DNA from: Deltaproteobacteria bacterium
Lineage (GTDB): Bacteria > Myxococcota_A > Polyangia > JAAYKL01
DNA length: 47,199 nucleotides
Direction: 5' to 3'
Assembly (NCBI GenBank): GCA_029565915.1
Contig: JAKQNG010000012.1
Coordinates: 1 to 47,199 of the forward strand
Notes under the pieces: generated by a model
What the model was told of the DNA's origin: nothing
Databases searched by the model: none
The model's input: the letters and a program-made list of their open reading frames with translations, nothing else
Shown: positions 8,969 through 10,831 of the stretch, piece by piece
How the letters are laid out: every line of letters starts with the position of its first letter
How positions within the stretch are numbered: position 1 is the stretch's first letter
Translations under genes and position numbers: made by a program

Positions 8969-10831
8969 ATGACGGTCGCAATGATCAACAGGTGCTGCGT
9001 CTGCCTGGCGGCCATCATTCTGTGCGCCGGTCTGTGGGCGTGCAGTGAGGAAGGGTCCGGCACTGCCGATGGCGACAGCGACGGCGACACGGACAGCGAC
9101 AGCGATGGCGACACGGACGGCGACACGGACGGGGATGCGGATGTGCCGCCCTGCGAATCCGCCGGTGACGGTCTCACCTCACTGGTTTTCGTCAACCGCT
9201 GCGACGCTTCGCTGTCCGTCCGCGGCAGCGACATGGCAGATCTCGAGATTCCACCCGGCGGCCGCGTGTGCCACACTGCCGGCAGCGATGTGGCGGAGAT
9301 TCCATCGATCCGGTTCTGGGGGTTCATCGGGACGGATCCCGGAGGCGGGCGGCATACGCTGGCAGAGATGACGCTGAACACCGATTTCAACGACTTCGAC
9401 TGGTACAACCTCAGCCACGTGGACGCCCACAACCTGCCCATGGCCATCGTGCCCCTCGGGATGGCCGACTGTCCCTCCCTCACCTGCGGTGACAACCTGC
9501 TGGCCGACTGCCCCGAAGAAGGCCGGTACGAGGTGGACGGCGAAGTCGTGTCCTGCGTGAGTCCCGACCGGGACGATCCGGACAATCCAGTGGCGCGCTA
9601 TTTTGAGGAGTCCTGTGACGACGCCTATTCGTGGTCCGGCGACGACGCGGAGTCCATGGCCGCCTGTGCCGGTGAAGACTACGAAATCGTGTTCTGTCCC
9701 GCGGCGGATGCGGGCCCTTACCCCGTGGTCCCTTCGCCCGTCACCGACGGCGGCACGATGACCTTCACCAACATCGGCGCAAGCGGGTGGTGGCCGCGGC
9801 GCCTCGACCTGCCCAACGGCGATCCCGCGTGCAACTTCAAGGACGGCACCGATACCTGGGGCGGGGTCTGCTGCATGGAGATGCACTACACCGACAGCAC
9901 CCGGCTGTCGCCTTTTGACGAGGAGATGACGCTGATCCTGAAGGCGCTGGACGTGAAGCAGCTCGCCGTTTACCAGCCGGCGGGCGACGCCGCAGCCGCG
10001 GACTGGACAAGGGTGTCGCTCTTCGATCGGCGGCGACCGGCCGCGGAGAACTTCACCTTTACAAAAAGCGGTGACGACAGTGCGGTCTTTGACGGGGATC
10101 TGACCCGTGACGACTGTGTCTGGTACGCCATGCAGGACGCGGACTTCCCCTGCGCGGACTGGGAAGAATACTATTGTCCCGACGACCCGGGCATCAACCA
10201 TCGGGGCTGGTCCGGTTCCAAGCTGATCGCGTTTCTGGGTTCCATGGACTTTGACGATGCCGGTGTCAACGCCTGTGGCAGTGACGATCCCGGCCATCCG
10301 GGGCCGTGGGTGGCGTTCGTGGCCTCCGAGCTGGTCCGGGACGGTGCCCGCAAGTGGAACGGGCTGTGCAACTGCTATTCAAAGACCGCCTCCGTGGGCG
10401 ACGGATGCGGCGAGATCAATGTGTTTGAAGTGGTGATGGACAACAACGAATGGAGCAACCGGGAGTTCATCAGCACCGGCGTCCGGTCGTTCCAGAACGG
10501 CCATGTGGGGGGCAGCGTGTGCGGCGAGGGCTGTCAGCGGGACGACTTCGCGGCGACCGCGGACGTGGTGGATGCCTGCGCCATGACCGCGTACGATGAA
10601 GGGCCGGTGCTGGAATCCGGCGGTGCCACGGACGGCTGTCCCGTGTGGCGCAGACCGGAAGGAGACCGGTTTTTCCTGATCGCGCTGGATGAAGAAACGC
10701 GCAGCATCCAGGTGGCCATCATCCATCCCGCAAGCATTCCCGATGCGGCCGCATCCCTGCTGCCCGCGTTCCCCGCGGCGCTGGAGCGGTCACAGATCGA
10801 CGCGCTGATGGCCATGCGCCTGCCGCAGTAA
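8969..10831 (+). CDS. Lipoprotein fusing a thaumatin-like domain to a fungal TOS1-like domain
   Basis: This is a 620-residue protein. A signal peptide ends at lipobox GLWAC (Cys25), followed by an acidic linker to about residue 55. Residues about 58-250 match the thaumatin family: TSLVFVNRC, a FDWYNLSHVDAHNLPMAIVP block, Cys-rich LTCGDNLLADCP, then an ending YFEESCDDAYSWSGDDAES ... CAGEDYEIVFCP. Residues about 255-560 resemble yeast TOS1/YJL171C: TFTNIGASGWWPRRLD, RLSPFDEEMTLILKALDVKQLAVYQP, and GLCNCYSKTASVGDGCGEINVFEVV. The start at 8969 follows the upstream stop by one base; Met5 at 8981 is an alternative. Thaumatin-like proteins and TOS1 are both associated with beta-1,3-glucan, so binding or cleaving fungal-type wall is the likely job (inference). 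Confidence 0.85.
   Translation: MTVAMINRCCVCLAAIILCAGLWACSEEGSGTADGDSDGDTDSDSDGDTDGDTDGDADVPPCESAGDGLTSLVFVNRCDASLSVRGSDMADLEIPPGGRVCHTAGSDVAEIPSIRFWGFIGTDPGGGRHTLAEMTLNTDFNDFDWYNLSHVDAHNLPMAIVPLGMADCPSLTCGDNLLADCPEEGRYEVDGEVVSCVSPDRDDPDNPVARYFEESCDDAYSWSGDDAESMAACAGEDYEIVFCPAADAGPYPVVPSPVTDGGTMTFTNIGASGWWPRRLDLPNGDPACNFKDGTDTWGGVCCMEMHYTDSTRLSPFDEEMTLILKALDVKQLAVYQPAGDAAAADWTRVSLFDRRRPAAENFTFTKSGDDSAVFDGDLTRDDCVWYAMQDADFPCADWEEYYCPDDPGINHRGWSGSKLIAFLGSMDFDDAGVNACGSDDPGHPGPWVAFVASELVRDGARKWNGLCNCYSKTASVGDGCGEINVFEVVMDNNEWSNREFISTGVRSFQNGHVGGSVCGEGCQRDDFAATADVVDACAMTAYDEGPVLESGGATDGCPVWRRPEGDRFFLIALDEETRSIQVAIIHPASIPDAAASLLPAFPAALERSQIDALMAMRLPQ
9067..9143 (+). repeat. Asp-rich coding repeat in the thaumatin-TOS1 gene
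   Basis: GGCGAC/ACGGAC units encode [21 protein letters not shown] just after the lipobox, the same style as at 7027-7188. Confidence 0.8.

Follow-up and report, generated by a model that had tools for sequence, protein, structure and literature searches.

The window, which is the whole stretch of 47,199 nucleotides that was analysed, contains a gene that encodes a thaumatin-like and a Tos1-like domain in one chain (Table 1). Its reading frame is open from 8909 to 10831 on the plus strand, and with the ATG at 8969 taken as the start, the product has 620 amino acids (P0001) and the frame is intact. The thaumatin and TOS1 motifs that had been quoted in an earlier note on this DNA are all found in this translation. 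The protein is predicted to be a surface lipoprotein and would be exposed at the outside of the cell. Linkers of the type DGDTDGDTD or DSDTDSD after lipoprotein signals are found dozens of times among secreted proteins of the window and of genomes of the same family.

Table 1. Genes and features at the thaumatin-Tos1 locus (positions in the window)
Feature	Position	Strand	Evidence
FecR/zf-HC2/TPR protein, probably a sensor or anti-sigma partner	3717..5135	-	
ECF sigma factor, upstream of the operon, opposite strand	5072..5662	-	Pfam Sigma70_r4_2, E 2.6e-15
Lipoprotein with CBM6 and GH158 endo-beta-1,3-glucanase; upstream, probably same operon	6889..8967	+	phmmer against PDB, Pfam CBM_6
Thaumatin-Tos1 fusion lipoprotein gene	8969..10831	+	ORF, translation, Pfam; ATG 1 base past the GH158 stop
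Lipoprotein signal peptide, lipobox LWAC, Cys25	8969..9043	+	lipobox recognised by eye
Acidic DGDTDGD linker from lipid anchor to thaumatin domain	9044..9142	+	sequence
Thaumatin-like domain, aa 62-244, 10 conserved Cys	9152..9700	+	PF00314, alignment A5, AF2 model
Tos1-like domain, aa 249-620, YJL171C/Tos1 N and C parts, 12 invariant Cys	9713..10828	+	Pfam on 36 relatives, alignment A3, AF2 model
Motif GCGEINVFE, aa 479-487, Asn484 for Asp; candidate counterpart of GH16 ExDxxE	10403..10429	+	
DUF362 protein, downstream	10844..12667	+	Pfam, E 2.6e-15

Further away in the window, a 529-residue protein (13518-15107, minus strand) has a GILT match in two stretches (E 3.8e-20) together with DsbA-like thioredoxin matches; GILT, the gamma-interferon-inducible lysosomal thiol reductase, is best known from animals. 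A dolichyl-phosphate-mannose mannosyltransferase-like protein is encoded at 28812-30431 on the minus strand (PMT_2, E 1.3e-21).

The thaumatin-like and Tos1-like modules

The N-terminal half of the protein is a thaumatin, as the earlier note had read it: PF00314 matches with E 4.6e-20 and 72.6 bits, the cut-off being 27.4, and the AF2 model of this half, which is of moderate confidence (pTM 0.66, pLDDT 63), matches 28 PDB chains at E<=3.7e-7 with TM 0.59-0.66, every match at E<=0.001 being thaumatin-like. When fused and separate chains were aligned together, the thaumatin rows came out misplaced, and this alignment was left out of the folding. Large thaumatins usually have 16 Cys residues. With respect to the acidic cleft (REDDD motif), E133, D152 and D225/D226 are present, E133 and D152 being invariant in all 8 sequences of alignment A5, and N147 replaces an Asp in 7 of these 8; the Arg has no assignable counterpart, as the N-terminal part of the module does not align. 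The best PDB profile match of the module is the thaumatin-like protein of Amycolatopsis rifamycinica (7P22, E 6.3e-20), so one bacterial thaumatin is already solved, and 14 of 379 Myxococcota genomes have a Pfam thaumatin; the stress that had been laid on thaumatins as plant, animal and fungal proteins was thus too strong. Thaumatins of plants are antifungal, one small-type thaumatin of cereals inhibits xylanase, and TLXI (3G7M) is a weak match among the fold matches of the model, which would fit a thaumatin that is directed against fungi or enzyme defences, by permeabilisation or inhibition, and does not serve glucan degradation. Such a role is quite unlikely, as the association with glucanases described below is stable and there is no independent sign of toxicity.

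The assignment of the C-terminal half to TOS1 is upheld by the relatives more than by the window protein itself, which stays below the cut-offs of both models (PF10287 Tos1_C, E 2.8e-5, 24.3 bits against 27; PF10290 Tos1_N, E 0.0036). The homology is nevertheless secure, because among 36 distinct related domains (alignment A3, members counted at E<=0.05) Tos1_C is matched in all 36 with a best E of 1.3e-7 and Tos1_N in 35 with a best E of 1.9e-11, in the fungal order of the parts. Several of these domains exceed the PF10290 cut-off, and no better competing Pfam family was found for the 36. The AF2 model of the Tos1-like half has a pLDDT of 83 and a pTM of 0.88 and is mostly beta; Foldseek, which depends on chain order, found no match for it among PDB and viral structures, and the Tos1 profile gave only chance matches to antibodies among PDB sequences. 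The missing Foldseek match is what a permuted fold should give, without proving one. The two folds that had been anticipated for the halves thus fared differently, the thaumatin fold being recovered, whereas the predicted Tos1 beta-sandwich matched no solved fold.

In passages of papers that cite Steczkiewicz et al. 2010 (PMC5872309, PMC4176579), fungal Tos1 is treated as a circularly permuted, GH16-like glucanase, and it is listed under GH16 as a predicted beta-1,3-glucanase (PMC11657238; also PMC5872309); Tos1 has also been described as having no role in wall remodelling (PMC10932003). Where the GH16 motif is ExDxxE, the window protein reads E-I-N-V-F-E, and because the Asp is lacking, the domain is named Tos1-like here and its catalysis is taken only as possible. 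The family motif is G-C-G-[E/Q]-[I/F]-N-[V/A]-F-E with invariant surroundings, the Asn replacing Asp in 36 of 36 members. In single-substitution scoring, the Pfam model prefers Asp at this middle position by 2.8 bits, and Glu over Gln by 2.6 bits at the first and by 2.9 bits at the last motif position. To assess a circular permutation, sets of 11 and 22 GH16 sequences of relatives were compared with Tos1 sequences, also in doubled form, with shuffled sequences as controls: in the profile comparison, GCGEINVFEVV aligns with the active-site strand of GH16 along no more than 12 columns and without significance (E 0.05-0.085), shuffled sequences gave E 0.35 or worse, and the doubled Tos1 sequences also agree only at the level of the motif. 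Going by the motif, the module may be a hydrolase that is weakened or altered, or else a derivative that binds glucan; in mode of action, it may hydrolyse slowly, act as a transglycosylase or only bind.

It is quite possible, if not quite probable, that both modules of the protein bind glucan only and that hydrolysis is left to GH158 and GH128, which is a narrower version of the explanation preferred below. The Asn in all members points in this direction, as do the Gln that replaces the first motif Glu in 15 of the 36 while the rest of the motif is invariant, the one changed residue in the acidic cleft of the thaumatin, and the glucanase that is already encoded by the adjoining gene. However, the window protein does not belong to these 15 but has both motif Glu residues (E482 and E487), E487 is invariant in all 36, and so are E133 and D152 in the thaumatins.

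Gln-type Tos1-like proteins are encoded at the loci L053, L055, L056, L057, L064, L065 and L066, and Gln-type paralogs at L035, L042, L047, L048, L049, L051, L058 and L069; in some genomes, Glu-type and Gln-type Tos1 are found together in the same locus. By their sequences, the Gln-type members would be naturally occurring variants of the presumed active site. Beside the paralogs, a family of about 450-520 amino acids is encoded (L042:8029-9396, L047:5855-7213, L048:5846-7216, L049:2311, L051:8845, L058:4181, and by position L035:7535-8980), which has no Pfam match in L042, L058 and L035 and no PDB match in L042, and which is possibly an undescribed partner. In Myxococcus and Hyalangium, a conserved protein of about 500 amino acids adjoins Tos1 (L053:7123-8655, L055:7123-8550, L056:7077-8609), the L053 member of which has neither a Pfam nor a PDB match; these three loci also contain porin-like, GH2-like/GH158-related and di-haem oxidoreductase genes.

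Fused and separate genes in Myxococcota

Relatives were gathered from whole genomes and from the GTDB collection, which was scanned with two short patterns. The GTDB collection contributed 22 loci, all from assemblies named as Myxococcota or by an older label (Sorangium, Polyangium, Minicystis, Myxococcus, Hyalangium, Labilithrix and 'Deltaproteobacteria' assemblies). Judged by the 36 distinct sequences, Tos1-like proteins form a regular, if uncommon, family of Myxococcota, which is new here, and the description of TOS1 as a fungal protein in the earlier note was too narrow. Among the 379 Myxococcota genomes, Tos1 is present in 8, in 7 of them together with a Pfam thaumatin, and this co-occurrence has a Fisher P of 1e-10, or of 3e-9 without the window genome and of 3e-6 by genus without the window genome, all of these values ignoring phylogeny.

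In the nearest relatives (G004-G006, 61-71% identical), thaumatin and Tos1 are encoded by separate genes. Tos1 is followed by thaumatin with a 4-base overlap in G006, the order is thaumatin, GH128, Tos1 in G005 and G366, the reverse, Tos1, GH128, thaumatin, in G190 and G368, and thaumatin, Tos1 in the Polyangiaceae locus L052, so that six other genomes have a separate thaumatin near Tos1 in an adjacent or operon-like position; in G004, GH128-thaumatin and GH128-Tos1 are found on two contigs. Fungal contamination was considered and rejected, both halves of the window protein having 65-71% identity to proteins from the same family of bacteria.

The fusion in the same chain was found only in the window genome among the genomes and loci searched. 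As thaumatin and Tos1 genes adjoin in relatives and sometimes overlap (L032, L052), and as the window comes from a draft assembly of 343 contigs, two neighbour genes might have been joined by an assembly error or a frameshift, but this is highly unlikely. Separate Tos1 proteins begin with a signal peptide and linker that are their own and take up roughly 50-100 amino acids ahead of the domain, and the about 13 bases between the thaumatin and Tos1 domain hits (9700-9713) leave no space in which a second signal peptide, lost or merged, could be hidden. The coding composition is also uniform, with a GC3 of 0.80-0.83 in both halves, as real coding sequence would have. The fusion is probably genuine, and the loss of a GH128 gene between thaumatin and Tos1 would yield the arrangement of the window.

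Neighbouring glucanases and the proposed function

In phmmer searches against the PDB, the product of the upstream gene matches BuGH158 (6PAL, E 5.4e-104 over residues 296-691) and 9ORO (E 2.5e-83), and also the CBM6 of BH0236 (E 6.4e-12), in agreement with the Pfam CBM_6 match; Pfam alone gives a weak GH2/GH42 similarity for the GH part. The families GH158, GH128 and GH64 are known to depolymerise beta-1,3-glucan. The GH158 catalytic residues N401-E402 and E485 are present, assigned by motif comparison with PMC7157763, and endo-beta-1,3-glucanase activity has been characterised in experiments for the GH158 family (PMC7157763). In 16 of the separate loci that were examined, a GH128 gene lies near Tos1, the junctions often being short or overlapping, and roughly half of the Tos1 loci lack a nearby GH128; GH64 is found beside Tos1 in two loci and GH16 in the wider G004 locus. 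A search for GH64 in the window's own genome gave no match, which is not proof of its absence. The beta-1,3-glucan role that the earlier note had proposed is thus favoured by the context of neighbouring GH158, GH128 and GH64 genes.

On another contig of the window genome (G000:C318), a GH16 match (24617-25078, plus strand) and a GH128 match (36060-36704, minus strand) lie about 11 kb apart and are probably a second beta-1,3-glucan locus. In G005, a GH11 xylanase-like lipoprotein is encoded directly after Tos1 (L045:7182-8078).

The ECF sigma factor and the FecR protein nearby suggest an inducible expression, and such a pair is found also near the Tos1 operon of G004, where in addition an N-terminal part akin to the DUF362 neighbour adjoins Tos1 (L033:7243-7809, judged by eye). 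Myxobacteria make complex developmental coats and matrices, and a regulated expression would also be compatible with proteins whose target is the matrix or developmental coat of the bacterium itself and not foreign glucan. This is unlikely, since the neighbouring GH158, GH128 and GH64 are known for beta-1,3-glucan depolymerisation, and the presence of Tos1 in only 8 of the 379 genomes argues against a core developmental role.

The window protein is rather likely a two-module surface lipoprotein for beta-1,3-glucan that arose by fusion of two partner genes. The thaumatin and Tos1 modules would be held outside the cell on the flexible acidic linker, and both would act with the upstream CBM6-GH158 protein to hold and cut insoluble beta-1,3-glucan, be it of the fungal wall, where it is the principal fibre, or in curdlan, callose or laminarin-like material. 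What are separate neighbour lipoproteins in relatives, often together with GH128, would have become one gene in the window genome. Tentatively, and with considerable doubt, Tos1-like proteins may be regarded as an unrecognised bacterial glucan-active family with an Asn-altered active site and with the thaumatin as its dedicated partner, the pair being one unit that is welded here; within this reading, Tos1-like proteins are possibly transglycosylases or binding derivatives of a circularly permuted GH16. The fusion in the window and the unfused neighbours in relatives link thaumatin functionally with Tos1, and we know of no earlier report of such a link. Fungal Tos1 is known in the yeast wall with an activity that is only predicted (PMC11657238), and the bacterial relatives beside endo-beta-1,3-glucanases are independent evidence on the substrate and offer versions that are amenable to testing.

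Comparison with known systems

The Bacteroides loci for 1,3-beta-glucan utilisation combine GH158, GH16 and surface glycan-binding proteins (PMC7157763), and the window likewise has a GH158 with surface proteins that are probably directed to glucan, together with a dedicated regulator. Unlike in Bacteroides, no SusC/SusD pair was identified in a non-systematic inspection of the window, and the Bacteroides loci are described without thaumatin or Tos1 modules (PMC7157763). With thaumatin-like proteins and the GH152 enzymes among them, which cleave beta-1,3-glucan (PMC11800479), the window module has in common the Pfam match, the predicted fold and the residues E133, D152 and D225/D226, but it is shorter, has 10 conserved Cys and an Asn147 where plant proteins have Asp, and is predicted to be lipid-anchored to the cell. 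7P22 of Amycolatopsis rifamycinica is likewise a bacterial thaumatin, but was solved as a stand-alone chain of 244 residues without a Tos1 domain. In contrast to fungal Tos1/YJL171C (PF10290 and PF10287), the window protein is a bacterial lipoprotein that is fused to a thaumatin and has an Asn for the preferred motif Asp, and its sequence, taken singly, is sub-threshold to the fungal models. Like their fungal counterparts, the bacterial proteins are nevertheless secreted and Cys-rich, contain both parts in the same order, and share a motif of the G-E-x-[DN]-x-F-E type.
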